From positions 1 to 46,019 of the IMG/VR virus record IMGVR_UViG_3300031928_000050: a DNA stretch of 46,019 nt. The stretch is one strand, 5' to 3'. A program made the translations under genes and the position numbers. The notes under the pieces were generated by a model that was not told the DNA's origin, made no database searches, and saw nothing but the letters and a program-made list of their open reading frames with translations. Of the stretch, positions 15,655 to 46,019 are shown piece by piece; positions within the stretch are counted from its first letter, which is position 1, and every line of letters starts with the position of its first letter. Source of the DNA: a virus.

Positions 15655-15852
15655 ATGAAAAAATTTAAAGATTTTATTGAAGAAGGTATTTCACCAGACC
15701 CAAAAGCTAAACAAGGTAAATTGTATACTAAGCAAGAGGCCGCAGAATTTTGGGATATTGATGAAGCTGACGTAATTTTATCAGATAGAAATAAGAAAGC
15801 ACCAGTTTGGGTTAACGATTTGACATCTAAAACTATTTTGGCAAAAAAGTAA
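15655..15852 (+). CDS. Small protein with capsid-targeting-like N-terminus
   Basis: The 65-residue product begins MKKFKDFIEEG, close to the capsid-targeting sequence of T4 internal proteins (MKTYQEFIAEA), with an I-E-E site that fits the (Leu/Ile)-x-Glu cleavage rule of the gp21 prohead protease. Cleavage would leave about 55 residues. The rest (YTKQEAAEFWDIDEADV) contains a helix-turn-helix-like stretch but no family I recognise. The ATG at 15655 lies 3 bases after the ligase stop with AAAGGAT upstream. A head-packaged role is inferred from the N-terminus and the number of neighbours that share it. Confidence 0.65.
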   Translation: MKKFKDFIEEGISPDPKAKQGKLYTKQEAAEFWDIDEADVILSDRNKKAPVWVNDLTSKTILAKK

Positions 15853-15885
15853 AAAAAATATTATATTTTGAAAGGACAAATCACG

Positions 15886-16422
15886 ATGGTATCATTTAAA
15901 CAAATTTTAGAAGCAGCACAAGAAAGCGAATTGGTTTCAACTCTTAACGACATTTGGGATGCATATGTAGAAGAAACTGGTGATACAGAAGGCGAAAACT
16001 TTGACGCTGGATTGACAATTCTAATGGGTTATGCTTCACTAATTCCAGCAAATGTTGCTTCACAAATGGTTGCAGATTTAGAGGATGTATTCTTTGATGA
16101 AGATGAAGAAGACGAAGAAGACGACGAAGACGAAGAAGATGAGGATGAAATCAAGGAATCTATCACTAAGTTAGAAACACTTGAGGAAGCTGGTAAACTT
16201 ACAAGAGCACAAGCAAAAATGCTTAATAAGAAAAGGGCATCCTTGGCTGGTTCTAATCGACGAGTTTCAATCAAAAAAGGCAAAATTGATATTCATATTG
16301 TTGACCGCGCACGTTCAAAAATGATGAAAGGTTCTTTAGGAAAGAAAATGCGTAAAAAAGCTCACACGGGAAAAGCAATGAGAGCTGCTCTTAAGACCAA
16401 GAAGAGACGTGGCGAACTGTAA
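15886..16422 (+). CDS. Probable prohead core / internal head protein
   Basis: The 178-residue protein starts MVSFKQILEAA, a capsid-targeting-like sequence with an I-L-E site. Residues about 15-65 are helical, residues 66-90 are almost all Asp and Glu, and the last 80 residues are strongly basic (KKMRKKAHTGKAM, KTKKRRGEL). An acidic block joined to a basic, DNA-binding-like tail is typical of phage scaffold-core and internal proteins such as T4 gp67, gp68 and the IPs; no direct homology can be claimed. The longer frame beginning at 15868 is unlikely because AAAGGACA lies just before 15886. It is followed by a hairpin terminator at 16481. Confidence 0.65.
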   Translation: MVSFKQILEAAQESELVSTLNDIWDAYVEETGDTEGENFDAGLTILMGYASLIPANVASQMVADLEDVFFDEDEEDEEDDEDEEDEDEIKESITKLETLEEAGKLTRAQAKMLNKKRASLAGSNRRVSIKKGKIDIHIVDRARSKMMKGSLGKKMRKKAHTGKAMRAALKTKKRRGEL

Positions 16423-16464
16423 ACTAGTTTTTTTACTAAAATACTGCAGAATGTAAAATTTTTA

Positions 16465-16494
16465 GTTTACATCAAAGTTAAAAGGGTTTAGAAT
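16465..16494 (+). promoter_or_regulatory. Possible promoter overlapping the 16481 terminator
   Basis: TTTACA at 16465-16470 and TAGAAT at 16489-16494 with an 18-base spacer. The -10 lies in the 5' arm of the terminator, so transcription would start in the loop (about 16501) and escape the hairpin. It would serve the phosphoesterase gene. Confidence 0.45.
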
Positions 16495-16518
16495 AAAATT
16501 AAGTTCTAAACCCTTTTT
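16481..16518 (+). terminator. Rho-independent terminator after the core-like gene
   Basis: AAAGGGTTTAGAA at 16481-16493 pairs perfectly with TTCTAAACCCTTT at 16504-16516, a 13-bp stem with a 10-base loop followed by further T residues. Confidence 0.85.
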
Positions 16519-16536
16519 ACTTGTAAAGGCTCTATC

Positions 16537-17088
16537 ATGTATTGGTTCACATCCGATCAACACTTTTCGCATTCAAATATTTTGAAATATTGTAATAGAC
16601 CATTTGAAACAGTCGATGAAATGGATAAAACTATTATTTCAAATTTTAACTCTAAAGTTAAGCCGAATGACATTGTTTATCATCTTGGTGATTTTTCATT
16701 CAAGGATCCTAGACCATATCTAAATCAACTAAATGGTAAACATCATTTAATTGTAGGCAATCATGATAACCGCTCCAGCCTAACGTATTTTAAATCTGTT
16801 GAAACATCTAAATTACTGAAATTGGAATTTGGAATTTTAATTTATCTTTCGCATTACGGGCATAGAGTTTGGCCCAGTTCGCATCACGGTTCAATTCATT
16901 TATATGGACATTCTCATGGGAAATTACCGTCTTTCGGCAGATCATTTGATGTTGGGGTGGACTGCAACAATTTTCAACCAGTGTCAATTGAAGAAGTAAT
17001 AAATACAGCTAAACGGTTAAAGCCAATAGTCATGTTTTGTTCAGACCCACTAAAACAGTTCAATGAGGATTCCAATGAAAACCTTTAA
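16537..17088 (+). CDS. Calcineurin-like metallophosphoesterase
   Basis: The 183-residue protein has the complete metallophosphoesterase signature: D-x-H (SDQHFSH, residues 6-12), GD (YHLGDF), GNHD (VGNHDNR), an isolated His (LSHYGH) and the final GHSHG. This is the short, single-domain form common in phages and bacteria, which usually hydrolyses phosphodiesters or nucleotides with two metal ions. The substrate cannot be told. The ATG follows an AAAGGC ribosome site. Its last 14 bases overlap the next gene. Whether it repairs or processes 2',3'-cyclic ends, together with the ligase-like and kinase genes nearby, is only a hypothesis. Confidence 0.88.
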   Translation: MYWFTSDQHFSHSNILKYCNRPFETVDEMDKTIISNFNSKVKPNDIVYHLGDFSFKDPRPYLNQLNGKHHLIVGNHDNRSSLTYFKSVETSKLLKLEFGILIYLSHYGHRVWPSSHHGSIHLYGHSHGKLPSFGRSFDVGVDCNNFQPVSIEEVINTAKRLKPIVMFCSDPLKQFNEDSNENL

Positions 17089-17290
17089 AGATTTGTTCAC
17101 TGAAGATATTTCAAAAATCGACATGATTAAACTTAACATGATTGTATCTTATTTACAAAATGCATCAACCGAAATTAAAAGTGGAAAGCCAATTAAAAAC
17201 AAAAAAGACATTGACAAAATAAACAATTGTTTAAAGGGTATGTCTGGTTGCGCTGCCAAAATAAATGAGATTGTAACTTCTGCTATATGA
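17075..17290 (+). CDS. Small helical protein with capsid-targeting-like N-terminus
   Basis: The 71-residue product begins MKTFKDLFTED, matching the shared N-terminus, although the site reads L-F-T-E and so does not strictly fit (Leu/Ile)-x-Glu. The remainder (IVSYLQNASTEIKSGK, INNCLKGMSGCAAKINEIV) is helical with two Cys. Family unknown. The ATG at 17075 is inside the 3' end of the phosphoesterase gene and has GAGGAT upstream. The stop overlaps the following ATG by 4 bases. Confidence 0.6.
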   Translation: MKTFKDLFTEDISKIDMIKLNMIVSYLQNASTEIKSGKPIKNKKDIDKINNCLKGMSGCAAKINEIVTSAI

Positions 17291-17850
17291 TCAAATTTAA
17301 GGACTTCATTAAAGAATCTAAGGAATTGCCGAGCAATAAATATATCGATGCCGTTATTGAAGATAACGAAAAGGTGTATATTTTAATCGGCGGAACTCTC
17401 GGTGCAGGTAAATCAACTTGGGTAACCAGCCACCTCCCTAATGTAAAATTGATTGATGCTGATGAATTCGCATTAGAATTAGCTAACGGCGATACATCGA
17501 ATGAAAAACTTAGATCAGTTGCAATTCAAGCAATCAAGATGAAACAGGCTGCTGTAGAATCTGCTTTAATGACTGGAACAACCTTTATAGAAATGGGAAC
17601 TTCTGCGAATTCCCAGTCTACTTTAAAGAAAATTCAAAAAGCAAAAGCTTTAGGTTTCACCACTCTGTTTATTTTGATTGCAACCACCCCAGAAGAAGCA
17701 ATCAAAAGAAACCACCAACGTATAGAATCTGGACAGCGTGGCGTTTCACCTGAAAACGAATATAGAATTTATCAGGCGTACGATGATGTTAAGAAAACCT
17801 TCTCAGTTGTAAAACGATCAAACTTTTTAGATTTTTACTTCAAAAAATAG
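17287..17850 (+). CDS. P-loop kinase (zeta-toxin / AAA_33-like) with capsid-targeting-like N-terminus
   Basis: The 187-residue product starts MIKFKDFIKES, with an I-K-E cleavage-type site after residue 10. A complete Walker A motif follows at residues 36-44 (GTLGAGKST), then IDADEFALE near residue 57, FILIATTPEEAIKR near residue 132 and NHQRIESGQRGVSPE. This order is that of small nucleotide-type kinases related to zeta toxins and AAA_33 proteins, which phosphorylate a small molecule or nucleic-acid end. The targeting-like N-terminus suggests packaging in the head, cleavage to a free kinase and entry with the DNA. It overlaps the previous stop by 4 bases and precedes a promoter at 17851. The substrate is unknown. 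Confidence 0.75.
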   Translation: MIKFKDFIKESKELPSNKYIDAVIEDNEKVYILIGGTLGAGKSTWVTSHLPNVKLIDADEFALELANGDTSNEKLRSVAIQAIKMKQAAVESALMTGTTFIEMGTSANSQSTLKKIQKAKALGFTTLFILIATTPEEAIKRNHQRIESGQRGVSPENEYRIYQAYDDVKKTFSVVKRSNFLDFYFKK

Positions 17851-17879
17851 TTTACTTTCTCCAAAAAATGTAATATAAT
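17851..17879 (+). promoter_or_regulatory. Sigma70-like promoter for the sugar cassette
   Basis: TTTACT at 17851-17856, 17-base spacer, TATAAT at 17874-17879; predicted start near 17886. It would drive the glycosyltransferase, HAD, kinase, nucleotidyltransferase and second glycosyltransferase genes, which overlap or touch each other. Confidence 0.75.
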
Positions 17880-17951
17880 ATATCTATAATTGAATTTGCG
17901 GAATCCCTATCAGTCGTGAACTGGGAGGATGCCAAACTGAATGGAAAACTA

Positions 17952-18803
17952 ATGAATGTATATATCCCTTCTTATTTAGGTAACTGCGATAAGCGACCTA
18001 TCCGTGAAAAAGCCCTCTCTACTCTTTTAACCTGGTTACTTCAAAATGAATCAATTAGGATTACTATTCTTGCACAAGAATGGTTAGAAACCGATTTACC
18101 AAAATTCAATATTTCCAATAAAATTAACATTATTCATGGTATGCGAGCTAGGGTTGGTATTAACAGAAACATAATGTTAAAGATGTTTTATGAAACCAAT
18201 GAAGATTATGCATTTTTCATGGATGATGATGCGTTGGGTTTAATTAGTAACACTGATATGTCTTTTTGGGAATACCTTGACAAATATGTGTTTCCATTTG
18301 CTGATAAATGGGATTCATTAAATTTCAAAAAGGCTATGTATAAAAATAAAGTAATTAAAAACAATGAATGTTTTTCAATTTGGACACCTACAACTGAATT
18401 ATGTACTACCATGTTGTTAATCAAAAATTTTAAAAAGAAATTTAACTTAGAATTTTATTTTGATGAAACATTGGATGCGTTAGAAGATCTGGCCTTAGGG
18501 CTTGAGTTATCTAGGTGTGGTTTAAAAAATTACTTAATTGAAAATCCGTATTGTGCTGAAGTTCAATTGTCTATTATGTTTAAAGATAGGGAAGACCGAA
18601 CTCAACGAAACAAAAAAGCTAAAGCAGATATTAAAAAACTGTTTGATAGATTTGAAAATTCTAAACATCTGTTAACAATTGCTACAAACGGGTCGATATT
18701 AAAGTCTAAATTTGAACAAAAATTTGTTGCTCATCCAAAACGAATTATCTATCATGATTCCGATGAGTGGAAAATAAAGGAAACCTTAGATGACTTCATG
18801 TAA
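17952..18803 (+). CDS. GT-A type glycosyltransferase
   Basis: The 283-residue protein opens with a strand MNVYIPSYLG and has RARVGINRNIML followed by EDYAFFMDDDALG. The DDD near residues 90-93 matches the metal and nucleotide-sugar binding D-x-D of GT-A (GT2-like) transferases, and the preceding R-x-x-x-x-x-R-N is typical of phage glycosyltransferases. LEDLALGLELSRCG near residue 180 fits the acceptor-side ED motif. The target could be phage DNA bases or a surface glycan. The start is uncertain: ATG 17952 best fits the fold, but GTG 17916 is in frame, and the leader contains mini-frames ATG-CCA-AAC-TGA and ATG-GAA-AAC-TAA. The 3' end overlaps the HAD gene by 14 bases. Confidence 0.75.
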   Translation: MNVYIPSYLGNCDKRPIREKALSTLLTWLLQNESIRITILAQEWLETDLPKFNISNKINIIHGMRARVGINRNIMLKMFYETNEDYAFFMDDDALGLISNTDMSFWEYLDKYVFPFADKWDSLNFKKAMYKNKVIKNNECFSIWTPTTELCTTMLLIKNFKKKFNLEFYFDETLDALEDLALGLELSRCGLKNYLIENPYCAEVQLSIMFKDREDRTQRNKKAKADIKKLFDRFENSKHLLTIATNGSILKSKFEQKFVAHPKRIIYHDSDEWKIKETLDDFM

Positions 18804-19368
18804 TTTTTGCAACTTGTTCGATTTTGATGGAACGTTGTTCAATACAACAGATGCATTGTTCTTAGCATATAAACAAGCCATGTTTGAAATTGTTAAAAAG
18901 AATTTAACTAAAGAGGCTTGGTCTGATAATTTTGGGAATCATATTTCGTGTATATGCAAAGAGCTTGAAATAGATGAAGATGATACAATTAAAATTAGAA
19001 AGTTAAAATATAAAAATTATCCTGATAATTTTTTAAACTCAATTACTAAAATAGATAAAATGATTCGGGTTGCTTCTATATGCAAGCACAATTATATTGT
19101 ATCATCTACGGAAAAACCTGTTATAATAAAAATATTACAATATAACTCATTGGATAATTTGTTTGAAGGTATTTTTGATTACTCATGTTCAACTAAACAA
19201 AAACCACATCCAGAACCGTATTTAAATGCAATAAATACACTTAACTTTGATCGGTATAATATATTTGAAGATTCTACGGCTGGAATTCAATCAGCCATTG
19301 AAACAAAACAATTGCTAACTGGTAAACAAATTAAGTTATTTAATCAAAAGGGGATGATGATAGCATGA
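18790..19368 (+). CDS. HAD-superfamily phosphatase
   Basis: The 192-residue protein has the HAD motifs: FDFDGTLFNT (motif I with the nucleophile Asp), YIVSSTEK (motif II), KPHPEP (motif III Lys) and FEDSTAGI (motif IV acidic). The C1 cap region is helical. It resembles small beta-phosphoglucomutase/phosphatase-type HADs. Flanked by a kinase and a nucleotidyltransferase, it may remove a phosphate during sugar or alcohol activation. Genes before and after overlap, so it is translated as part of one operon. Confidence 0.83.
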   Translation: MTSCNFCNLFDFDGTLFNTTDALFLAYKQAMFEIVKKNLTKEAWSDNFGNHISCICKELEIDEDDTIKIRKLKYKNYPDNFLNSITKIDKMIRVASICKHNYIVSSTEKPVIIKILQYNSLDNLFEGIFDYSCSTKQKPHPEPYLNAINTLNFDRYNIFEDSTAGIQSAIETKQLLTGKQIKLFNQKGMMIA

Positions 19369-20273
19369 AAATATTGAAGGGTGGCTCGTTTGCTACAATC
19401 AGGCTAGATGAATCATCTCAATTGGTATATAAATTTGCTCAGTTATCTAACTTGTCCGCATTTTCGCAACTCAAAGATCAATATGTATGGATGAAATTCC
19501 ATAACAAATACACTCCGCAAATCATATCAGACGGTTTTGAATCTGGCAATTATTTTTATGCAATGAAGTTCGTAGATGGTGAATCATTAAATACATGTAT
19601 TACTGAAAAAAATATTGAAAAATTGATATCTGTAGTAGATTTAATAAAATCAGAACAACATTTTATAAATCCAGCAAAATCATTTGAAATTTATATTAAT
19701 AGATTAAAATCGCATATTTCAAATCTCAGACAGTATACACAATTCAATTTGATGATGTCAAATGATTATTTTTTGGTTGATGGTATTAAAATTAAAAATA
19801 TTGACTTCATAAAATACTTTGAATTACTTCAAAAGAATATTCCATATTTTAATGACAATTCATCGGTATGCCACGGAGATTTTACTCTAGAGAACATTTT
19901 TCTTAAAAATGATGAAATATTGCTGATAGATTCTAATTATATTTTGGGCGGTTGGAACTCATTTCTTCTAGACTTATCTAAGCTATATCAATCGTTACAC
20001 TTTTTTTACGAAGAATCTTTTAATAATGAAAATTTTTCGATGGTTCAAGATAAAGAAACCGTAATAAACATTGGGGTTTCTTCAGCTACTAAAATAAATG
20101 CTTATAATTTTCTAAAATCTAAATTAAATGACATCCATTCATATTTGTTGTTGCTGGAAATTTCACATTACATTAGAATGCTGATCTATAAATTAAAAAT
20201 TTCCGATAACGATTTTTATACAGCATACGTTAGAATGTGCCAAGTATATCAAGAATTGGAGTGTGAACTATGA
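19365..20273 (+). CDS. APH / choline-kinase-fold phosphotransferase
   Basis: The 302-residue protein carries the APH catalytic (Brenner) motif HGDFTLENIF near residue 170 and the metal-binding LIDSNYI about 15 residues later. The N-lobe has GGSFATIRL as glycine loop, YKFAQL with the ATP-binding Lys, and a hinge FVDGESL. This family phosphorylates small hydroxyl compounds such as choline, sugars or aminoglycosides. Its place directly before a LicC-like nucleotidyltransferase suggests that it makes the phosphorylated precursor. It overlaps both neighbours by 4 bases. Confidence 0.85.
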   Translation: MKILKGGSFATIRLDESSQLVYKFAQLSNLSAFSQLKDQYVWMKFHNKYTPQIISDGFESGNYFYAMKFVDGESLNTCITEKNIEKLISVVDLIKSEQHFINPAKSFEIYINRLKSHISNLRQYTQFNLMMSNDYFLVDGIKIKNIDFIKYFELLQKNIPYFNDNSSVCHGDFTLENIFLKNDEILLIDSNYILGGWNSFLLDLSKLYQSLHFFYEESFNNENFSMVQDKETVINIGVSSATKINAYNFLKSKLNDIHSYLLLLEISHYIRMLIYKLKISDNDFYTAYVRMCQVYQELECEL

Positions 20274-20965
20274 AAATAAAAAAAGCGATTATCCTGGCGG
20301 CTGGTGCATCAAAACGGTTTGGTAAAAATAAATTAGAAATTTTGATTAAAGGTAAAACATTACCACAGTACGCAGTTGAATTTTGTATTGCAAATGGCAT
20401 GAATGAAGTATGCATTACAATTTCTAAAAAGGATTTTTATATTAAAGATTATTCAACGTTGATGCATCCAATCATTGAACAGTTAGAACAATACAAGTTT
20501 TTGATTGATGTAAAATATTCGTTTCAGAATGAGGATGAATACGGACCTGGCGCTGCATTAAAGGTTTGGAAAAATTATATCAAAGAACCTTTTATTACTT
20601 TGTTTGGTGATAACTTTTACCACGGCACTTTAGAGCAGTTTCAAGAATCCGATTGCATAGTATCGTATAAATCAAAAGAAGAAGATGCTAGAAACCTCCA
20701 ACTGGCTGCAATAAAGAATAACATTATAATAGAAAAGCCACACCCATTCACCTCCGGAGATTTTTTCTGTGGTTTTGTTATTTTTTCACCAGTAGTATTT
20801 GATAATATTGAAAATATTTCAAAATCGGATAGAAATGAATATGAAATAACCGATTTAATAAATTCAATTGCCAATCGACAATTTGTTGAAAACAAACTAA
20901 CATGGGCTGATATAACATTTTCAGGTGATGAAGAAAATGTAGCAAAACTAATGGGTAATCTATAA
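20270..20965 (+). CDS. Sugar-phosphate or phosphocholine nucleotidyltransferase
   Basis: The 231-residue product begins with the nucleotidyltransferase signature LAAGASKRFGKNK (residues 9-21, L-A-A-G-x-x-x-R-x...K). It has PGAALKVW near residue 95, LFGDNF (metal-binding Asp) near residue 115, and EKPHPF followed by CGFVIFSP. This is the GT-A-like fold that makes NDP-sugars or CDP-choline (GlmU, RfbA and LicC types). With the kinase before it, the pair resembles a LicA-LicC arrangement, but the substrate cannot be settled. The stop codon's last base is the A of the next ATG. Confidence 0.85.
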   Translation: MKIKKAIILAAGASKRFGKNKLEILIKGKTLPQYAVEFCIANGMNEVCITISKKDFYIKDYSTLMHPIIEQLEQYKFLIDVKYSFQNEDEYGPGAALKVWKNYIKEPFITLFGDNFYHGTLEQFQESDCIVSYKSKEEDARNLQLAAIKNNIIIEKPHPFTSGDFFCGFVIFSPVVFDNIENISKSDRNEYEITDLINSIANRQFVENKLTWADITFSGDEENVAKLMGNL

Positions 20966-22260
20966 TGAAAAAACTAAACATTGGTGTAGGCAAACTTGGA
21001 AGTTCTACTTTATTCGATACTAAACGATGGTCTGCTCATGGCGGTTGTATGGATTCGCCTACAATGATAAAACTGTTGGCTAAATACAATCCAGAGCATA
21101 CCTTTTATATTATTGGTAGATCAGATTTTTCTAGGTTAAAGCCTGAGCAACAGCGAGAAATAAATGTTAATGGAAATATAATAGATCCTTGGAAAGATTA
21201 CACAAATGCTCAAGATCGTATTACCTTTTTGACGAATTGGTTTGATCAAAACAATGTTAAACTAGATACTGCTGCGTTATACCCCGGTCCAGTTTCAAGA
21301 GCAAATATACCAAACATGCTGCGAACAGTTAAAACCGGAGAATATGCAAAAGTTTTGTTTTGTTTTGAAAATTATGTTGGGCCAGTCATAGATTTTTTAA
21401 ATAAATCCATGGTGAAATATTTTACATTAGTACCAGATCCTAGATATCATGCAATGAAAGCATGGGATTGTTTTAACATTGCAGAATTTGCCTTATCACA
21501 ATATAATTCTGATGCGTTTAATTCAAAACATATAACGTCGTATGAAGATCATACATATATCAATACAAAAATAAAAACAATTTATTCTGGTATTGAAACC
21601 TTGTTTTTAACAGAACAGCAAAAATTAGATATTACATCAATGAAAAAAACAATACCAATGACTATAGTATTAAATGAGGGTGGCAACCACGGTCTTTGCC
21701 GTGGGCCAATGTTAAAAGATTATATTCTAAATCACGTTAATGATGTAAAAGTATATGGGAAATGGGATGAAAAATGGTTAGCCGATTCTAGATTTAAAGG
21801 ACCAGTTCATATCAACTTGTTAGCAGAAGAACTCAAAGCTACAAAATCAACATTTATTATACCTATTCAAAAGGGCTGGGTAACTGCTAAGTTCTGGGAA
21901 ATGAGTCATTATGGTATTATTCCGTTTATGCATCCGTATTATGATGAACAAGGCCACATCAAATGCCATGAATTGATTCGAACAAAATCTCCAGCAGATT
22001 TTAAAGAAAAATATAAATTAATAATGAATGATTCATCAATTTATAATGAAGTAATGGAATCTCAACAAAAACTATTAGCAAACAAATATTATAATGGACA
22101 ATTTATCAACAATGTAGTAATGCGATCAGTTTATCATATTCTAGGTGAAGATCCGGCAAACTACAATTTAACAACTGAAAAAATAAATGAAATAAATAAC
22201 TCTAGAATAATTGAATCAACACCAAAAAATTCTTCGAATTCATTGGAGAATTTTTTCTGA
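20965..22260 (+). CDS. GT-B-like phage glycosyltransferase
   Basis: The 431-residue protein has a Rossmann-type start (LNIGVGKLGSSTLFDTKRWSAHGG), a middle KYFTLVPDPRYH, and a C-terminal domain with LNEGGNHGLCRGP and KFWEMSHYGIIPFMHPYY. The last element matches the place where GT-B enzymes, including T4 alpha-glucosyltransferase, have an E/H-x-x-x-x-G-x-x-P-x donor-binding loop. It could attach the sugar made by the upstream cassette to phage DNA or to a surface glycan. I did not see a hydroxymethylating enzyme in this window. Its last 60 residues are polar and probably flexible. The next gene starts 13 bases after the stop. Confidence 0.65.
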   Translation: MKKLNIGVGKLGSSTLFDTKRWSAHGGCMDSPTMIKLLAKYNPEHTFYIIGRSDFSRLKPEQQREINVNGNIIDPWKDYTNAQDRITFLTNWFDQNNVKLDTAALYPGPVSRANIPNMLRTVKTGEYAKVLFCFENYVGPVIDFLNKSMVKYFTLVPDPRYHAMKAWDCFNIAEFALSQYNSDAFNSKHITSYEDHTYINTKIKTIYSGIETLFLTEQQKLDITSMKKTIPMTIVLNEGGNHGLCRGPMLKDYILNHVNDVKVYGKWDEKWLADSRFKGPVHINLLAEELKATKSTFIIPIQKGWVTAKFWEMSHYGIIPFMHPYYDEQGHIKCHELIRTKSPADFKEKYKLIMNDSSIYNEVMESQQKLLANKYYNGQFINNVVMRSVYHILGEDPANYNLTTEKINEINNSRIIESTPKNSSNSLENFF

Positions 22261-22264
22261 TATA

Positions 22265-22315
22265 GGTGAACTAGTGAAAACGTTTAAACAATTTATTAGA
22301 GAAAATATGCAAGCA
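22265..22315 (+). repeat. Duplicated RBS plus targeting-sequence cassette, copy 1
   Basis: 51 bases beginning GGTGAACTAGTGAAAACGTT that include the ribosome site, the GTG start and codons for VKTFKQFIRE. They match 23691-23741 at 48 of 51 positions, with the first 35 identical. Both copies begin 4 bases after the stop codon of the gene before (22260 and 23686). Confidence 0.9.
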
Positions 22316-23686
22316 GGACGTACAACTGCCAAATATGAAGACAGTTTTAAAATATTTAATACAAAACTAGAAAAAATAAAAATAACGCTTTTCAAAAATA
22401 TTAAGTTACCGGAAGAAGATTTGTTTTTTGCTGATTCTAGCTGGAATGGTAAATCACAGTACGCAGTAAAGTTATCACAAAAAAACTTTGATGTTATTAA
22501 AAATAAATTTGAATTAAATGATGGTAAAATTACAGTTGCAGGAATTACTATTAAATTTTTGTCATCTGGCAAAACTAAAAATGCTAATTCAGGCGGGCGA
22601 TCATTAGCAAATGCAGGTGAAAAGGCAACGATCAAAGCAATACAATTATACGCTGCTGGAAAAACAGTTGAACTCCCCGAAGATACCGGTGAAGAACTAT
22701 TCATCAATGATGTTGATTCTTTTTTGCGTTGGAAAAATACATTTGATTTAACCCCAAAAATTTTACAAAAAATAATCAAATCGCAATTGTCAGATTATAC
22801 GATAGAACATGATGCATCAGGTGGAGAATTTTCTAAGCAAGTAGTAGATAAAATTGTAAAACTGCGTGGTGGTTCAAAGGATTCATGGAATCCAGCTGAT
22901 ATTTGGATTATTAAAAAAAATAAAATGCCTTATATGTTTGTGGAATTTAATAAAATATTTTCAATGAATCTTGACTCAGACATTAAAGTAAGTCTTTGTA
23001 ACACTCTTATAATAGATTTATATAATAATGATATTCTTTATCCCGTGTCGTTAAAACAAATAACTTCTAAATCTGGTTCATTTGAACTAGCTAATTTATC
23101 AGAACTAGCTTCGCCGCCAAAAAATTATAATTATGAAATGAAAGCTTTTCCTTGTAATTTTGATTACGCAGATGGTGTATTCAAAACTAGGGAAATTGGT
23201 GTATTTACGGCATTAAATAAAGACACTGGCAAAAACTTGTTATTTCAGGTTAGAAACTTCCCTCCTGGATTTGATGTAGTACAAACTGAAATTACTTCAT
23301 CAGGTGAACCCACCGGTGGCAGGATTGGTAAAGTTCCTACTGCAGTGATCGATAAAATTATGAGTGAATACTCATATTCACGTATTAAGAAAAAGAAAGA
23401 GTTTAACGGTTTCGAATGGGATTCCGCAGAAATAAAAAAATACAGCAATATGGTTCAGACAGTTGGTGGCAATAAAAAATATTTTGATGATAATATAGCA
23501 GAATGGCTTCACCTTGCTCAAACCGATTCACAAATAAAGGCAGATTTATCATGTAAAATACAAGGTTTAATCTTTTCTAATTTTTTTGCAGCAAATGTTA
23601 ATCATATAAGTGATATTATGAATAAATTTTTGCTTGGTGCAAAAAAAATATCAAACGATTCTGGTTTTTTTATTAAAATTTATTGA
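22274..23686 (+). CDS. Capsid-targeted protein, possible PD-(D/E)XK-type nuclease
   Basis: The 470-residue product starts VKTFKQFIREN, a targeting-like sequence with an I-R-E site. The GTG at 22274 has AGGTGAA six bases upstream; the longer frame from 22211 would overlap the glycosyltransferase and is unlikely. Around residues 195-215 is LRGGSKDSWNPADIWIIKK and about 45 residues later ILYPVSLKQITSKSG. An N-P-x-D-x-W followed by S-L-K resembles the Asp and Lys of restriction-endonuclease-like folds, but the spacing is loose, so the nuclease idea is tentative. The remaining domains are not recognised. If packaged, it would be about 460 residues after cleavage. The next gene repeats the same 5' cassette. 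Confidence 0.6.
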   Translation: MKTFKQFIRENMQAGRTTAKYEDSFKIFNTKLEKIKITLFKNIKLPEEDLFFADSSWNGKSQYAVKLSQKNFDVIKNKFELNDGKITVAGITIKFLSSGKTKNANSGGRSLANAGEKATIKAIQLYAAGKTVELPEDTGEELFINDVDSFLRWKNTFDLTPKILQKIIKSQLSDYTIEHDASGGEFSKQVVDKIVKLRGGSKDSWNPADIWIIKKNKMPYMFVEFNKIFSMNLDSDIKVSLCNTLIIDLYNNDILYPVSLKQITSKSGSFELANLSELASPPKNYNYEMKAFPCNFDYADGVFKTREIGVFTALNKDTGKNLLFQVRNFPPGFDVVQTEITSSGEPTGGRIGKVPTAVIDKIMSEYSYSRIKKKKEFNGFEWDSAEIKKYSNMVQTVGGNKKYFDDNIAEWLHLAQTDSQIKADLSCKIQGLIFSNFFAANVNHISDIMNKFLLGAKKISNDSGFFIKIY

Positions 23687-23690
23687 GACG

Positions 23691-23741
23691 GGTGAACTAG
23701 TGAAAACGTTTAAACAATTTATTAGGGAAGATGTGCAAGCA
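23691..23741 (+). repeat. Duplicated RBS plus targeting-sequence cassette, copy 2
   Basis: Matches 22265-22315 at 48 of 51 bases, the differences being three A/G changes. It encodes VKTFKQFIRED, and similarity ends soon after, so only the ribosome site and leader are duplicated while the two proteins are otherwise unrelated. Confidence 0.9.
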
Positions 23742-24626
23742 TCAAAAAGAGTTGGTATAGAACATGTATCTAAACTTAAACCACTCGAGTTCATTTCTTT
23801 TTGCAATTATTTGCAGGACGAATTGGGTGGAATAATTTCCCAGGAAAATGTAAAAATAAATTTAAAAATTGATGGATGTGGAGTTAGGTTTGGGGTAAAC
23901 CCGGATTCTGGTAAACTGTTTCTTGAATCATCACATTCTGGCCCACAATATGATATAGGCGCATTTTCAAAATACACCCAAGAAAAACTTGGAAAATCTG
24001 ATGCAATATCAGAATCATACGATGAAGTGTTAAAGGAATTGTCTCAGCAAAAGAATTTATTAGAATTTTTAAAAAATACACCAGTCAAAGTACATGCTGA
24101 ATTATTATATACACCAAATGCAACGGTGATCGGCGATAAACTCCAGTTTCTTGTAGTTAAATACGATAAATCTGTTTTAGGAAATAAGTTTACTTTAGTT
24201 TGTTATAAAACGGAACAGTTAAAGGAAACAGACTTATCTGAAGAAGAAATTATAAAACAGTTGAAAACGTTCAGCACTCCAGATATAAAAATTGAAGATC
24301 AACGGTTACAATTTAATTCAATTGACATTTCATATGAAATTGGTAATTTTTTGCAAATGATAAATAAACAAAATAATATTGAACAAATTTTAGTATCGAG
24401 AAAACGTGAGCACCAACAAGCAAAGCTAGCCTTGATTGAAATCATACAGCAAGTTCAAGAAGATATTTCAAAAAAAATAATTTCTACTAAATTTCAGCAT
24501 GCATTGGGTACTGATTCGATGGAAGGAATAGTCTTGTATTTTACCAATGGTAAAGTTGTTAAAGTTGTTACAGATGAGTACAAAACTGGAAAAGTTCAAT
24601 TCAATTTAGATAGAAAAAACAAATGA
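23700..24626 (+). CDS. Ligase-like nucleotidyltransferase with capsid-targeting-like N-terminus
   Basis: The 308-residue protein begins VKTFKQFIRED (I-R-E site). It then shows the motifs of covalent nucleotidyltransferases (DNA/RNA ligases and capping enzymes): motif I KIDG at residues 56-59, with a following G-V-R-F-G; HAELLY near residue 133 in place of motif III; SMEGIVLYF near residue 275 (motif IV, E-G); and VVKVVTDEYK near residue 288 (motif V). It lacks an obvious C-terminal OB domain. It could seal or adenylate RNA or DNA ends soon after entry if packaged. The GTG at 23700 lies 14 bases after the previous stop, with GGGTGAA as ribosome site. Confidence 0.7.
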   Translation: MKTFKQFIREDVQASKRVGIEHVSKLKPLEFISFCNYLQDELGGIISQENVKINLKIDGCGVRFGVNPDSGKLFLESSHSGPQYDIGAFSKYTQEKLGKSDAISESYDEVLKELSQQKNLLEFLKNTPVKVHAELLYTPNATVIGDKLQFLVVKYDKSVLGNKFTLVCYKTEQLKETDLSEEEIIKQLKTFSTPDIKIEDQRLQFNSIDISYEIGNFLQMINKQNNIEQILVSRKREHQQAKLALIEIIQQVQEDISKKIISTKFQHALGTDSMEGIVLYFTNGKVVKVVTDEYKTGKVQFNLDRKNK

Positions 24627-24689
24627 GATTATTCAAAAAAAATTGAAGAAATAAACATCATATAAATCAATGATAGGGTAATCGTAATT

Positions 24690-25133
24690 ATGAAAAATTT
24701 TAAACGTTTTTTATCAGAGGCAGTCATCGATGAATTCCAATTTTTCAATTCTTTATTGAATGATGAGATAACAGCCGCAGTCTTATATCTCAAGATTGCT
24801 AATTGTTTAAACGGCCAAGAATTTAATGCATTTAGAGAACAAATGAAAGAACACGCGGCAGATGAGCACCGGCATTTTACTGAATTGCTTGAAGCTTTTT
24901 CCAATAAATATCCGCAATTTGATTTTGACATCACCCTTACTAAAGACTTAAATCCACCAATTGATTACTCCGTGATCGCATTCACGCAGGGATTAGAAAT
25001 AGATGCAAGAAACAAATATAAAAAATTGATCGAATATGCTGAAAGTATTCAAGATAAATCATTAGAAGATCTATTTAGAAAAATTCTAGCTGAAGAAGAA
25101 GGCCATTTCTTTGACGTTAACAAGTTAAAATAA
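24690..25133 (+). CDS. Ferritin-like diiron protein with capsid-targeting-like N-terminus
   Basis: The 147-residue product begins MKNFKRFLSEA, with an L-S-E site after residue 10 that fits prohead-protease cleavage. The rest is a four-helix bundle with a full ferritin/rubrerythrin-type metal set: E26, E59-x-x-H62, E103 and E136-x-x-H139. Such proteins bind two irons and use oxygen or peroxide, in iron storage or oxidative defence. It is shorter than bacterioferritin (about 158) once cleaved (137). The start has AGGGTA at suitable distance. A TATAAATC late-like box lies at 24661-24668. A packaged ferritin-like protein is unusual; virion or post-entry protection against oxidants is a possibility, not shown. 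Confidence 0.8.
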   Translation: MKNFKRFLSEAVIDEFQFFNSLLNDEITAAVLYLKIANCLNGQEFNAFREQMKEHAADEHRHFTELLEAFSNKYPQFDFDITLTKDLNPPIDYSVIAFTQGLEIDARNKYKKLIEYAESIQDKSLEDLFRKILAEEEGHFFDVNKLK

Positions 25134-25171
25134 CTTTACACTGTTAGTAATTTGTTGAATCGGATTAAAAT

Positions 25172-25726
25172 ATGAATAATTTTAAAAAAACTTTACGCAT
25201 GTTGACTGAGCAATTGAATACCACCGATTTAGCAATATTCACTGGTAGGTTTCAAGGTTTTAATGTTGGTCATCAGACTGCGATAAATAAATTAAAGTCA
25301 CAATATAAAAGAACTGTTGTGTTTATTGTAGAAGGAAAAAATACTTCAGAAAATAAAGATCAAAATCCATTTTCGGCTGAATTACGAAAACAAATGGTGC
25401 AAGAAGCTTGTTCAGGTGTAGATGTGTATATTATACCAAATGGTTTTTTGCCAGGCGCAATTAAATATTTGGATTTAGTGAAACCTAATGAAACTGTTAT
25501 AATATCTTCCGGTGAAGATAGAATTGATTCTTATAAAAGCCAGTTTAAAACAGTTCCTTATTCAGTAGAATTTATTCAGTCAGATCGACCAGCCGGTGTA
25601 TCTGGTACTATGGCCAGAAAATCGTTGAAGGATAATGATTTTGCTGCATACAAAAAAGTAGCAGCCAAAGGTTTAGATAATAAAAATTGGTTTGATAAAT
25701 TGAGGGAAGCCATCAAAACTGATTAA
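25172..25726 (+). CDS. NadM-like nucleotidylyltransferase with capsid-targeting-like N-terminus
   Basis: The 184-residue product begins MNNFKKTLRMLTEQ, with an L-T-E site after residue 13. It has the cytidylyltransferase-fold start TGRFQGFNVGH (residues 24-34), FSAELRKQMV near residue 68, and VSGTMARKSL near residue 147, the (I/V)-S-G-T-x-x-R motif. This set is typical of NadM/NadR nicotinamide mononucleotide adenylyltransferases and related enzymes. The first His of H-x-G-H is Asn here (N31-V-G-H34), so activity or substrate may be altered. A role in NAD+ supply would fit the NAD-dependent ligase at 13835, but this link is inference. Confidence 0.75.
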   Translation: MNNFKKTLRMLTEQLNTTDLAIFTGRFQGFNVGHQTAINKLKSQYKRTVVFIVEGKNTSENKDQNPFSAELRKQMVQEACSGVDVYIIPNGFLPGAIKYLDLVKPNETVIISSGEDRIDSYKSQFKTVPYSVEFIQSDRPAGVSGTMARKSLKDNDFAAYKKVAAKGLDNKNWFDKLREAIKTD

Positions 25727-25769
25727 AATAATTTATGGTTATTTAATCCAGCTTAACTTACTGGAATTG

Positions 25770-25777
25770 GATAAATA
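25770..25777 (+). promoter_or_regulatory. T4-type late promoter box
   Basis: GATAAATA between the genes ending at 25726 and starting at 25803. The transcript would start near 25783 and contain a GGGGGAAA ribosome site before the ATG at 25803. A small TCCAG/CTGGA hairpin lies just upstream. Confidence 0.55.
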
Positions 25778-25802
25778 CTGTCAATGGGGGAAACGTATAC
25801 TA

Positions 25803-26939
25803 ATGCTAAAATTTAAACAATATATTAAATTGCACGAAGGTGGAAACCTGGTTCTTCAAACAGGTGAAGAAGCTCAAAAAATTAATGTGCTAAAGGTTGA
25901 AAGAACACAGATCGTTAGTATTGTTAAAACTGCATTAGAAGATTTAAATTCCGCGTTTAAAAAACAATTCGGCAAACCAATTTGGAAAGCTGTTGATGGT
26001 TCAATGGTATCTGGTTCAACCAGGTCATTTTTTAACAATAAAATATCTGATGCTGAATTCGCTAAGTATAAACAATTAGTTGGTGATTTGGATACAATGT
26101 ACCCATTAGAGATCAAAGAAGATCTTGGTAATTTTTTAAAAGCATCTACAGGTAAACAGTTTGGTGAATGTATTTTTAAAGGAATTGGTGGTAATTCCGG
26201 TACACAATTTAACGGGATTTTAGAACTACCTAAACAATTTTGGGAACACGTTAGATTTGTTCAATTGGATTTTGAACCAGTAAAATTTGAAAATGATAAA
26301 CCAACCGATTTTTCAGTGTTATCACATTATTCATCTTGGAATGATATTAAATCTGGAATTAAAGGTGTTGCAGTCAAACTGCTATATCGTGCTATTTTTT
26401 CAGATTTAGAAAAACTTGATAATTACGTTGTCCAAACGGCTACCGGCAAATTGTCAAAATCTGCTAAGTTTGAATCTGTAATTGGTAAATGGAAATTCTC
26501 AGTTGATTATGGCGTAAGACTTGGGTTTGAACCAGTCATGGATGAAAACGGCAACCAAAAGGTAGCCGGCGGTAAATTTGTATATAAAGAAACTGAAGCT
26601 GGCTCAGCCGGACAATATATTGATTCATTACCTATTATATTTGAAATGGCATTTAACAAAATTCCAGACGATGATGGTTTGCATAAGATGAAATCATTTG
26701 TTGGTGTTTTGGGTTTGCTAAGTTCGATGCCTAGCTCAAAAATAGAAAGTTATTTTGAAAGATTTTTACATGAACTTTGGTCACCAGGTGCTCAATCATT
26801 AGAAAGAACAGATTTTAAGAAAGATTTTGATGATAAAAATGCTGCTGTGCAAAAGTTTATAGAAATGTACCCTAAACTAAAAAAATATGAACCAACAATA
26901 CAATCGATGTTAAAGGTTTACTATAAAGGTAAGCTATGA
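25803..26939 (+). CDS. Polymerase-beta-type nucleotidyltransferase with capsid-targeting-like N-terminus
   Basis: The 378-residue product starts MLKFKQYIKLHEGG, with an L-H-E site after residue 12. It has the catalytic signature of the polymerase-beta nucleotidyltransferase superfamily: G71-S72 in VSGSTRSFF, then G94-D95-L-D97 in VGDLDTMYP, and a third Asp at D156 in FVQLDFEP. These enzymes add nucleotides to proteins, RNA or small molecules. The second half (residues 180-378) is helical with no motif known to me. The frame extends upstream to 25767, but that would include the late promoter; ATG 25803 fits the promoter and the shared N-terminus. The stop overlaps the next ATG. Confidence 0.7.
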   Translation: MLKFKQYIKLHEGGNLVLQTGEEAQKINVLKVERTQIVSIVKTALEDLNSAFKKQFGKPIWKAVDGSMVSGSTRSFFNNKISDAEFAKYKQLVGDLDTMYPLEIKEDLGNFLKASTGKQFGECIFKGIGGNSGTQFNGILELPKQFWEHVRFVQLDFEPVKFENDKPTDFSVLSHYSSWNDIKSGIKGVAVKLLYRAIFSDLEKLDNYVVQTATGKLSKSAKFESVIGKWKFSVDYGVRLGFEPVMDENGNQKVAGGKFVYKETEAGSAGQYIDSLPIIFEMAFNKIPDDDGLHKMKSFVGVLGLLSSMPSSKIESYFERFLHELWSPGAQSLERTDFKKDFDDKNAAVQKFIEMYPKLKKYEPTIQSMLKVYYKGKL

Positions 26940-27124
26940 TAAAAAAAGAAGCGGACGGATATCATGTTTATTCCGAGAAGGGTAAACATCTAGGTGGTCC
27001 GTATTCAAAAAAGAAAGCTGAGAAACGACTACACCAAATAGAATTTTTTAAACATCAGAATGAATCCTCATATGTTTCTTTTAAGGAATTCGTTGCATTG
27101 AATGAAGTAATCACTGATAGTTAA
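26936..27124 (+). CDS. Small basic protein with YSxxxGKxLGGPYS motif
   Basis: The 62-residue product has DGYHVYSEKGKHLGGPYSKKKAEKRLHQIEFFK, a short domain widespread in phages: a beta hairpin followed by a Lys-rich helix. Its function is unknown. The C-terminal 20 residues read VSFKEFVALNEVITDS, which resembles the targeting-like N-terminus of the neighbouring proteins but lies at the wrong end. It overlaps the gene before by 4 bases. Confidence 0.65.
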   Translation: MIKKEADGYHVYSEKGKHLGGPYSKKKAEKRLHQIEFFKHQNESSYVSFKEFVALNEVITDS

Positions 27125-27143
27125 AAGGTAAAAATTGTTGGCT

Positions 27144-27151
27144 GATAAATA
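27144..27151 (+). promoter_or_regulatory. T4-type late promoter box
   Basis: GATAAATA, 44 bases before the ATG at 27188; transcript start expected near 27157. It would drive the run of small overlapping genes 27188-28861. Confidence 0.5.
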
Positions 27152-27187
27152 CTATTGAACCAAAAACTTACATCACCGGGAAAATCT

Positions 27188-27343
27188 ATGTCTCGTAAAA
27201 AATTCATGTTATGCGGAGTGATTGGTAAACTTGTAGAAAGAACCTGTTGTACTCAAGTTAAAGATAAAAAATGTACACCCGAACAAGCTAATGCTTGTCT
27301 TAAAACTATTTTAGAAAAAGAGGAAAGCCAATGTCAGATTTAA
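27188..27343 (+). CDS. Small cysteine-rich protein
   Basis: The 51-residue product has six cysteines (CGV, RTCCTQ, KKCTPEQANACL, QCQ), a spacing suited to metal binding or disulfides. The frame runs back to a TTG at 27155, but that includes the late start region; the ATG at 27188 has CGGGAAAA before it. It overlaps the next gene by 13 bases. Family unknown. Confidence 0.55.
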   Translation: MSRKKFMLCGVIGKLVERTCCTQVKDKKCTPEQANACLKTILEKEESQCQI

Positions 27344-27561
27344 AAGATCTTATGGAATTATGCGAAGCCACCATTAACAAATCAGATGTTAAAGGTACTC
27401 AAAAATCACAAGTTAAATTGCTTGGGTCTGAGGCAATTGTAATAGCAAAACAAAATAAGTTTATTGTTCTAACTACTTCTGAAGGATCTGTTTCTATTCC
27501 ACAAGCTAAATTTGCTGCAGTGCTTGATGAATTGATGAAATTTTCAGATCAGGAACAATGA
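27331..27561 (+). CDS. Small protein with a possible capsid-targeting-like N-terminus
   Basis: The 76-residue product starts MSDLKDLMELCEATI, a weaker version of the shared leader (hydrophobic, Lys, L-C-E then Ala). The rest (LLGSEAIVIAKQNKFIVLTTSEGSVSIPQAKFAAVL) is a small beta-sheet domain not recognised. The ribosome site GAGGAAAG is well placed inside the previous gene. Overlaps the following gene by 4 bases. Confidence 0.55.
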   Translation: MSDLKDLMELCEATINKSDVKGTQKSQVKLLGSEAIVIAKQNKFIVLTTSEGSVSIPQAKFAAVLDELMKFSDQEQ

Positions 27562-27872
27562 TAGAACTAACCAAATTACATAAAGAATTGTCAAAACATT
27601 ACAAAGTATTTAAAGTAACTTCTGCAATAGACGAAGATTTGAAATTAATTAAAAAAATAAATATTTTGTTTGAAAAGTTAAGCAAATCAAATGACCCGAC
27701 CGGCTATTTAGGCATCATCAATATTTTTACTATTTTGGGTAATAACCTTAAGATAGAAGAAATGCAAGAAATCTTTTTAGAATTGATTGATTTTAAATAC
27801 CATCAGGCAACTTTATATTTGATTCATAACTATAAAAGTACCAATACTAAATCACTGGTTGAAAATTTATGA
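27558..27872 (+). CDS. Hypothetical helical protein
   Basis: A 104-residue, almost wholly helical, Lys/Leu/Ile-rich protein without Trp. No family is recognised. It overlaps both neighbours by 4 bases, so it belongs to the translationally coupled run of small genes from 27188, probably expressed late. Confidence 0.55.
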   Translation: MIELTKLHKELSKHYKVFKVTSAIDEDLKLIKKINILFEKLSKSNDPTGYLGIINIFTILGNNLKIEEMQEIFLELIDFKYHQATLYLIHNYKSTNTKSLVENL

Positions 27873-28363
27873 ATTATGTTTTGACGGAAACATTATCTTC
27901 TACGTTAATTACTTGGTATGTGCTAAAACGGTTAGTATTACCATGGAAAGAATGGGATGCGTTTAAAGTTGGCATCATAGATGAAACCGGTAAAAAAATA
28001 AAACAGCCGGTTTCATCTGTTGAGCGTGATGCATGGACTTCATTTGACAGATTTATGTGGAACCTTAGAAAAATTTTAGAAAAATTTGTTGGCGGATCTC
28101 AACTCGCACATTATCTTTCTGCAATGTATCTATTACGTGATGATATAAATTTAAATGCTAAATACACAAACATATTAACAGAGGATTCAAATTTTGTAGA
28201 TTTTAATTTAGAAAAACAAATTGTTATATTTGAATTTTTTAAGGAAATGGATAAACTTAACTTGAAACAGTTAAACGAGTTTGAGTTTGACATGTTTATG
28301 ATTTTACCTTCTGTTAAATCGATAATTACTAAACTAAATATTACGAGTGAAAAAATATGTTAA
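27869..28363 (+). CDS. Conserved phage protein of the T4-like head/internal gene region
   Basis: The 164-residue product begins MNYVLTETLSSTLITWYVLKRLVLPWKEWDAFKVGIIDETGKKI and continues with SVERDAWTSFDRFMWNLRKILEK. The pattern of a hydrophobic N-terminal helix, then W-D-A-F-x-x-G-I-I-D, then E-x-D-A-x-x-x-x-D-R is one I associate with an uncharacterised protein common in environmental T4-like phages, but I cannot name it. An L-T-E at residues 5-7 could be a prohead-protease site. The N-terminal hydrophobic stretch could be a membrane segment. Overlaps the next gene by 7 bases. Confidence 0.55.
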   Translation: MNYVLTETLSSTLITWYVLKRLVLPWKEWDAFKVGIIDETGKKIKQPVSSVERDAWTSFDRFMWNLRKILEKFVGGSQLAHYLSAMYLLRDDINLNAKYTNILTEDSNFVDFNLEKQIVIFEFFKEMDKLNLKQLNEFEFDMFMILPSVKSIITKLNITSEKIC

Positions 28364-28665
28364 GTAAAATGATATTAAGCAAAGTATTCACTGAAGATGC
28401 TTCATCTGCTGGTGATATAGCAGTACAACCAGGGGTAATCGGCCAAGATACACATAAAGGTATGCCGGTGTTTACTGTTGATTCATCTGAAGAATTTCAT
28501 TCTTTTGCTAAAGGGATAAAAACTTTTCATAGATGGTTAAAACACACAAAGTCCGAAGAAATTAGGCAATGGGCAAACTCTAATCCTGGAAAAGATTTTG
28601 TAGTTAAACATTCAGAATACTTTATCACAGTAAAAAGACCAAAAGGAAAAAAGAATGAAAACTAG
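28357..28665 (+). CDS. Small hypothetical protein
   Basis: The 102-residue product starts MLSKMILSKVFTEDASSAG. The segment ILSKVFTED loosely resembles the DLFTED end of the leader at 17075, so packaging is possible. The C-terminal half (FHRWLKHTKSEEIRQWANSNPGKDFVVKH) looks like a compact alpha-beta domain and ends in a Lys-rich tail. A second ATG at 28369 could also be used. Overlaps the next gene by 11 bases. Family unknown. Confidence 0.55.
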   Translation: MLSKMILSKVFTEDASSAGDIAVQPGVIGQDTHKGMPVFTVDSSEEFHSFAKGIKTFHRWLKHTKSEEIRQWANSNPGKDFVVKHSEYFITVKRPKGKKNEN

Positions 28666-36543: not shown

Positions 36544-36744
36544 ATGAAAACATATTGCAAAGATTGTGAATGCTGGTGGTTTGATGCAGCTATGACAACA
36601 GAATTTGAAGGTGAATGCCATTTTTGGCCACCTGGAACTGATAAAGCTAGATTCCCAAGAACTAAAGAAGATTCTTTTTGTTTTCAAGGAATTCCAAAGG
36701 TGGTTCCAAACAAAAAAGATGAGCAACTATTAACAGAGGGCTAA
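36544..36744 (+). CDS. Small cysteine-rich (zinc-ribbon-like) protein
   Basis: The 66-residue product has CKDCECWWFD, ECHFWPPG and SFCFQG. Four or five Cys, with the W and PP pattern, resemble small zinc-binding proteins found beside phage terminase genes. It is encoded between the capsid and gp17 genes and shares its last base with the gp17 start (TAATG). It may be a small terminase-linked factor, but its function is not known. Confidence 0.6.
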   Translation: MKTYCKDCECWWFDAAMTTEFEGECHFWPPGTDKARFPRTKEDSFCFQGIPKVVPNKKDEQLLTEG

Positions 36745-45359: not shown

Positions 45360-46019
45360 AAACTCTAAAGCAAATAGCGTTGGAAAAGCAATTGTTAGAG
45401 CTGAATTTTAATTTTGATGATTCTGTAACACCATCAACAAATTCTAAATCTAGTGTATTAGATAATTGTATTTTAATACGTGAAGAAGCTCAGCCTAAAG
45501 AGACAATTGAAACTATTAATATACCCGGACCGCAAGGGTTACCTGGTCGAGATGGGCGGGACGGTGAACAAGGGCCACAAGGATTGCCAGGTCGTGACGG
45601 TCAAGATGGTTTAAATGGTTTAAACGGCAGAGATGGTCAACCAGGTAAAGACGGCTATACTCCAGTCAAAGGGGTAGATTACTTTGACGGTAAAGACGGC
45701 TATACTCCAGCTAAAGATGTTGATTACTTTGATGGTAAAGATGGTTATACTCCAGTCAAAGATGTTGATTACTTTGACGGTAAAGACGGTATAGACGGTG
45801 TAAACGGTCAAGATGGCCAACCAGGTGCAGACGGCTATACTCCGGTTAAAGGTTTTGATTACTTTGACGGTATAAATGGCAGAGATGGTCAACCAGGCAA
45901 AGACGGGTATACCCCAGTCAAAGATATTGATTACTTTGACGGTAAAGACGGGTATACTCCAGTTAAAGATGTTGATTACTTTGATGGTAAAGATGGCAAA
46001 GACGGTATAGACGGTGTAG
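45356..46019 (+). CDS. Collagen-like repeat protein (partial, runs off the window)
   Basis: An open frame starts at ATG 45356, overlapping the portal stop as ATGA, and remains open to the window end (221 codons). It begins MKTLKQIALEKQLLELN, somewhat like the capsid-targeting leaders, then a non-repeat region to residue 60. From residue 61 it is collagen-like: G-P-Q-G-L-P-G-R-D-G, then repeated units of G-Y-T-P-V-K-x-V-D-Y-F-D-G-K-D. This is a frequent repeat in phage virion proteins; such triple-helical parts form elastic fibres. It stands where T4 has gp67, gp68 and gp21. A head-surface fibre or an extended core or tail part are all possible. Confidence 0.8.
   Translation, partial: MKTLKQIALEKQLLELNFNFDDSVTPSTNSKSSVLDNCILIREEAQPKETIETINIPGPQGLPGRDGRDGEQGPQGLPGRDGQDGLNGLNGRDGQPGKDGYTPVKGVDYFDGKDGYTPAKDVDYFDGKDGYTPVKDVDYFDGKDGIDGVNGQDGQPGADGYTPVKGFDYFDGINGRDGQPGKDGYTPVKDIDYFDGKDGYTPVKDVDYFDGKDGKDGIDGV
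45530..46019 (+). repeat. Collagen-like DNA repeats, about 39-45 base units
   Basis: Near-identical units of the form GACGG(C/T)TATACTCCAG, (T/G)AAAGATGTTGATTAC, TTTGACGGTAAA recur at least seven times from about 45645 to the window end. They encode the DGYTPxKxxDYFDG unit. High similarity points to recent expansion and a likely length-variable locus. Confidence 0.85.

Follow-up and report, generated by a model that had tools for sequence, protein, structure and literature searches.

We conclude with considerable confidence that a short N-terminal leader on nine genes of a T4-like myovirus is a capsid targeting sequence (CTS) of the T4 type, used here for a cargo of several enzymes that may make up a kit for nucleic-acid repair. 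The genes lie within positions 15655-26939 of IMG/VR record IMGVR_UViG_3300031928_000050, a 46-kb fragment (46,019 nucleotides, hereafter the window) in which capsid, terminase, and portal genes are clear. We infer that in this phage the tagged proteins are packaged, cleaved, and injected. This reading, first put forward in an initial annotation of the window, is supported by recovery of the T4 internal proteins (IPs) with a profile of the window leaders, by detection of leadered proteins in virions of cyanophages S-CREM2, S-SZBM1, and S-SM1, by a conserved Glu-GGN junction, and by conservation of the positions mutagenized in the T4 CTS. That a CTS enables T4-like phages to package varied proteins is already in the literature; new here are its use by a module of several enzymes, the evidence from the junction, the copying of a leader cassette, and the match to virion proteomes. 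We found no earlier report of a CTS on a multi-enzyme module in the open-licence literature, which is weak evidence of novelty.

Results

All nine leaders are present at the genes where the initial annotation had placed them. Their general form is M-x-x-F-K-x-[F/Y/L]-[I/L]-x-E, with longer and shorter variants. The claim that all nine share the same leader stands for the six that are strict, MKxFKx(F/L)(I/F/L)xE (two of six on GTG starts), with F4 and F/L7 at targeting residues 4 and 7. It must be relaxed for the degenerate leaders of genes 15886, 25172, and 25803 (genes are named by start coordinate), the first of which is shorter by one residue and the others longer by two or three; the T4 IPI leader, MKTFKEFTSTTTPVSTITE, is likewise longer than the strict form. 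The predicted (I/L)xE end is found in eight of the nine, the exception being MKTFKDLFTE, which has F at P3.

All nine genes are on the plus strand (arrows mark the predicted cut). The first two encode a small protein of 65 amino acids (15655-15852; leader MKKFKDFIEE, 15655-15684) and an acidic-then-basic, core-like protein of 178 amino acids (15886-16422; MVSFKQILE↓A), whose sole Pfam match, YL1, is low-complexity and below cut-off. These are followed by another small protein (17075-17290; MKTFKDLFTE↓D) and a P-loop kinase (17287-17850; AAA_33/zeta-like, PHROG polynucleotide kinase; MIKFKDFIKE↓S). Farther along are a phrog_1462-type protein (22274-23686; GTG start, VKTFKQFIRE↓N), a KxDG nucleotidyltransferase resembling polynucleotide ligases (23700-24626; GTG start, VKTFKQFIRE↓D), and a ferritin/bacterioferritin-like protein (24690-25133; MKNFKRFLSE↓A). 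The last two are a cytidylyltransferase/NMN-adenylyltransferase (NMNAT)-like enzyme (25172-25726; CTP_transf_like, MNNFKKTLRMLTE↓Q) and a nucleotidyltransferase (NTase) of the DNA polymerase beta superfamily (25803-26939; phrog_19290, MLKFKQYIKLHE↓GGN). As the annotation had held, the bodies behind the leaders are unrelated. Pfam and PHROGs assign kinase (AAA_33/zeta), ferritin-like, and CTP_transf_like/NMNAT-like domains, and the KxDG and pol-beta residues are intact.

The T4 IPIII leader KTYQEFIAE, which had no part in finding the window genes, provides an independent query. Among 52 window genes it ranks six leader genes at the top (scores 16-30), followed by gene 45356 (MKTLKQIALE, 15) and then by a score of 9. 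Five window leaders were used to train a profile, with which nine window open reading frames (ORFs) score at least 8, compared with 0.23 expected for shuffled N-termini, a count that is partly circular in that it consists mostly of training sequences. Applied to the 269 ORFs of T4, the same profile places gene 61.1, IPII, IPIII, and IPI as the top four; the Alt leader is not recovered. In viral contigs, among the matches listed, the pattern M-K-x-F-K-x-F-[I/L]-x-E falls at ORF starts in 118 of 126 cases and a permuted pattern in 24 of 120, the two being compared by the fraction at ORF starts and not by match count. When the Glu requirement is dropped, Glu is still at position 10 in 47 of 72 new starts. 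We reject chance or composition as the source of the likeness on the strength of the IPIII query, the shuffled N-termini, and the permuted-pattern control.

The boundary between leader and body is clearest in the NTase family, which was gathered via homology of the body and not via the leader. Leaderless members begin M-GGN, exactly at the junction, which speaks against the leader being a part of the enzyme families, the alternative that the initial annotation had named as a refutation of its reading. The members with an extension readable at the junction have 15 distinct leaders, 7 to 16 residues long, and in all 15 Glu stands right before GGN, the start codon and hence the length having been picked among alternatives in some members; P3 is I in seven, L in six, and V in two. 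Given a background Glu frequency of 6%, the naive probability of this is ~1e-18, an overstatement since the NTase sequences are related, though their leaders are diverse. In the KxDG family, where junctions were placed by eye, 10 of 10 leaders close with Glu, and eight have I or L at P3. As judged from these alignments, the junction Glu follows the rule for gp21; the leader is modular and, we infer, cut after this residue. The conserved window leader positions 4, 7, 8, and 10 are those identified by mutagenesis of IPIII, in which residues 4 and 7 act in targeting and 8 and 10 in processing (PMC9026906). An AF2 model of the 25803 NTase has residues 1-13 disordered and an ordered body (mean pLDDT, 88.9). 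For the ferritin-like protein no bacterial relatives were confirmed, and its leaderless state in bacteria is taken from PDB bacterioferritin alignments. No gp21 (S77) prohead protease was found in the 46-kb fragment, its ~3.3-kb extension, or the sister contig; one was found in 11 of 11 comparator phages.

Relatives with published virion proteomes link the leader to the particle. When the window profile was run on the 213 ORFs of S-CREM2 (PMC10665884), the top six were all virion-detected and 0 of 163 undetected ORFs scored as high (Fisher, 1.3e-4, at a cut-off of 7 picked after the scores were known); at a cut-off of 10 the count is 4 of 4 (p = 0.0028). Three of the six are enzymes: cytidylyltransferase gp154, APH-like kinase gp14, and SAM hydrolase gp6. 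S-CREM2 gp15 starts MNFSEFNE. The S-SZBM1 cytidylyltransferase gp140, with leader MRFRQFIIE↓A, is listed in the virion table (PMC9146016); its leaderless neighbors gp141 (KxDG) and gp142, which are homologous to leadered window genes, are named in neither the text nor the table of that paper. The T4-GC190 cytidylyltransferase was found in S-SM1 virions (PMC3037559), and the S-SM1 copy starts MKKFSAFLNEA. The leader goes unmentioned in the available parts of the cyanophage virion papers, which offer virion carriage or carry-over as explanations.

The leader also seems to move between genes. Genes 22274 and 23700 share 51 nucleotides of DNA spanning the ribosome-binding site (RBS), GTG start, and leader (22265-22315 and 23691-23741, both on the plus strand; 48/51 identical, the first 35 exactly), and past this cassette their bodies are unrelated. 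The remaining window leaders differ in DNA and retain the peptide. Thus, at least one gene acquired its leader by the copying of a short cassette. Among the matches listed from contigs of uncultured phages, ~50 sequence clusters bear the leader, and Pfam domains of the leadered proteins include cytidylyltransferase, SAM lyase, HicA toxin, ADP-ribosyltransferase, HD, DnaJ, methyltransferase, and others. One contig (L164) has four leadered genes in a row, and in two others (L362 and L365) NTase, kinase, and KxDG-type genes again occur together with leaders on most. The T4 portal was found in 17 and the S77 protease in 15 of the 24 leader-linked records tested, which are mostly fragments and include a few (e.g., L360) taken in for an NTase homologue, not a leader.

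The 25803 NTase has G71S72, D95xD97, and D156, and GS..DxD..D is invariant or nearly so in its family; in fold comparison its top matches are to DNA polymerase beta, at low TM-scores. The 23700 KxDG enzyme keeps motifs I, III, IV, and V (K56xD58G, E134, E275G, and K288) and also R63, and one member of its family matches PF09414 RNA_ligase. The 17287 kinase has the P-loop GTLGAGKS at residue 36 and leadered homologues at L362:5586 and L365:7218. The 25172 NMNAT-like enzyme has GRFQ...GH and SGTMAR motifs, and may supply NAD+ to an upstream LigA-type ligase (13835-15652), which would need it. The 22274 protein, with invariant E116, WNPAD(209)I, and SLK(261), is a suspected PD-(D/E)xK-like nuclease, a label that comes from the conserved E/D/K pattern only; a fold search of its model (pLDDT, 65.8) against the PDB gave no match.

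Discussion

We propose that the leader acts as a CTS, binding the prohead core via residues 4 and 7 during assembly, so that each tagged protein would be enclosed in the prohead. A gp21-type prohead protease would then cut after the Glu, and the mature enzyme would stay in the head with the DNA until ejected into the next cell. The tagged set includes the pol-beta-type NTase, the KxDG ligase-like enzyme, the polynucleotide kinase-like P-loop protein, the NMNAT-like enzyme, the possible nuclease, and the ferritin-like protein, and its job could be immediate nucleic-acid repair together with cofactor and DNA protection, ahead of phage gene expression. The likeliest role on the motifs, one that we advance tentatively, is to mend cleaved tRNA, or nicks in the incoming DNA, at once. 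New cargo would arise when a gene receives the short leader DNA by copying. Rather bolder, yet to us a real possibility short of an even chance, is that T4-like phages use a transferable RBS-plus-CTS cassette to turn arbitrary genes into injected cargo. Much of the unannotated gene pool of these phages would then amount to a legible list of injected effectors, and the window would hold a whole repair kit whose pol-beta member gains its mature GGN N-terminus only inside the head, through the prohead protease.

Several observations weigh against our reading. Three window genes have degenerate leaders, gp21 was not found in this fragment, and the repair role is drawn from motifs alone. The S-CREM2 result depends on where the line is drawn: besides the late choice of cut-off, 6 of 12 are virion-detected at a cut-off of 5.5 (p = 0.036). 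Ranking every non-structural virion protein gives no significant difference (p = 0.17), because most of these proteins are leaderless. S-SZBM1 gp136 and gp139 are in the virion without a strict leader; the leader is therefore not the sole way into the virion. The published virion proteomes are of CsCl preparations, for which the authors of the S-CREM2 and S-SCSM1 studies note possible carry-over. Finally, some of these enzymes are leaderless in their cyanophage, Stenotrophomonas phage, and Xanthomonas phage homologues, and thus packaging is not essential to the enzyme module.

Other explanations account for less of the evidence. The leader could be a peptide that interacts with the prohead core (scaffold) and keeps helper enzymes in the prohead, where they act in head assembly or DNA packaging with no delivery to the next host, and a set of ligase, polymerase, kinase, and nuclease would fit DNA repair while packaging. 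We consider this unlikely, as leadered proteins of relatives remain in finished virions, T4 IPs and Alt are ejected, and the HicA toxin, SAM lyase, ADP-ribosyltransferase, and HD cargo of relatives suits the host better than the head. Less probable still, at a level we regard as very low, is an inhibitory propeptide that locks each enzyme as a zymogen until the prohead protease frees its N-terminus, packaging being secondary. The invariant GGN terminus of the NTase, which the predicted cut would restore, speaks for such a lock; however, unrelated folds could hardly share one mode of inhibition, and the positions that the leaders conserve coincide with targeting residues 4 and 7.

We give almost no credence to a translation-enhancing or operon-specific 5' element, or to chance likeness among N-termini rich in lysine and phenylalanine in an AT-rich genome. 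The GC content of ~31% and the RBS and leader DNA shared by the two VKTFKQFIRE genes speak for such an origin, but the other leaders retain the peptide despite different DNA, the same type of peptide occurs in cyanophages, and members of the NTase family with a leader always have Glu ahead of GGN. Moreover, shuffled and permuted controls do not reproduce the pattern, and the window profile recovers the T4 IPs.

The window can be set beside several known systems. With T4 IPI, IPII, IPIII, and Alt, whose CTS is cut by gp21, it has in common the leader length, residues 4, 7, 8, and 10, the (I/L)xE end, and unrelated mature proteins. T4 cargo consists of small basic anti-restriction or assembly proteins and one enzyme (Alt), whereas the window has several enzymes of a conserved multi-gene module and additionally shows RBS and leader copied as DNA. 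The cyanophage virion enzymes (cytidylyltransferase/NMNAT of S-SM1, S-CREM2, S-SZBM1, and S-SCSM1; SAM hydrolase, APH kinase, and Cas9-like protein of S-CREM2) include a related cytidylyltransferase with neighboring gene order as in the window, and those virion-detected enzymes that were checked carry a leader; the cyanophage KxDG and phrog_1462 genes seen are leaderless, unlike those of the window. Ejection proteins of SPN3US (phiKZ/SPN3US) are also packaged and cut by a prohead protease after Glu, although their propeptides are mostly >100 residues (PMC5694885), compared with 9-13 for the window leaders. The P1 Dar proteins are linked to head morphogenesis (PMC12810830). Phage RNA-repair systems combine RNA ligase, an RlaP pol-beta NTase, and polynucleotide kinase (PMC7824862), and the same enzyme classes are found together in the window. 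The window parts differ in carrying a packaging leader, and the likeness is one of enzyme class and motifs.

Little is known of what T4-like phages inject alongside their DNA. Should the leader prove to mark packaged proteins, it would allow the set of injected proteins to be predicted from sequence, and tested, for many such phages. This would also offer an explanation for the NMNAT-like, SAM hydrolase, kinase, and Cas9-like enzymes in cyanophage virions and would provide natural packaging tags beyond that of T4 IPIII. A further suggestion is that enzymes for repair or anti-defence can be at work as soon as the DNA enters the cell.

Other features of the window and its relatives

The 13.0-kb stretch from 15655 to 28665 also includes leaderless genes, namely, 16537 (phosphoesterase) and a run at 17916-22260. 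The run comprises glycosyltransferase-like, HAD hydrolase, APH-like kinase, and NTP_transferase genes and a gene for an unknown 431-amino-acid protein, and resembles a sugar-nucleotide gene set lying inside the leader cluster. Between genes 15886 and 16537 is a 48-bp inverted repeat (16475-16522; 83% match to its own reverse complement), possibly a terminator hairpin. T4 late promoters (TATAAATA) are not enriched upstream of the leader genes (10 versus 11.8 expected), and PADLOC gave no matches to defence families. Past the nine genes, gene 27331 has another leader-like terminus, MSDLKDLMELCE↓A.

The gp23-type major capsid protein (34914-36542, plus strand) starts MTKPSLIAE↓AINSNV. T4 gp23 has an N-terminal propeptide of 65 residues; that of the window protein seems to be cut down to nine (MTKPSLIAE, 34914-34940) with an (I/L)xE-type end. 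Its relatives in viral contigs are limited to the sister contig (L003), and phages give distant matches only. The terminase and portal genes begin at 36744 and 43605. A collagen-like (GxDG repeat), tail-fibre-like protein of 627 amino acids is encoded by 45356-46019 together with L051:2000-3883 (minus strand), and its N-terminus, MKTLKQIALE, also scores as leader-like.

In S-CREM2, gp12 (L015:7704-10313, minus strand), annotated as Cas9 and detected in virions, has a leader-like LRFASFMAEA at residues 17-26; a packaged Cas9-like nuclease would, if true, be notable. Leader-like motifs also occur at C termini, in a predicted 62-amino-acid protein of the window (26936-27124, plus strand; YVSFKEFVALNE, 27071-27106) and in NTases of contigs L356, L360, L362, L365, and L367. 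The C-terminal variants ESFRDYL, ESFRGLL, and ESFRSLI are mostly on NTases starting M-GGN. Because the C terminus of T4 Alt is also processed by gp21 (PMC9026906), a C-terminal targeting tag is possible.

T4 gene 61.1 (NC_000866, 18966-19130) carries the best-scoring leader of T4, MKTFKEFIKE; the body of its product, ISIGTTSGAVVNKGP, resembles the start of gp23 (GTTSGDIATFGP in the window gp23), as do small leadered proteins with TTSGDIATVD-type bodies. Loci like 61.1 are found at L356:9882, L362:8872, L365:10656, and L011:18025, in L093, L117, and L166, and at window position 28357, where a small protein (28357-28665, plus strand; MLSKMILSKVFTE↓DASSAGDIAV) shows a weak likeness to the leadered 61.1-like proteins and is a candidate member. 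The 61.1 product may be an internal protein that has escaped notice and imitates the arm of the capsid protein.

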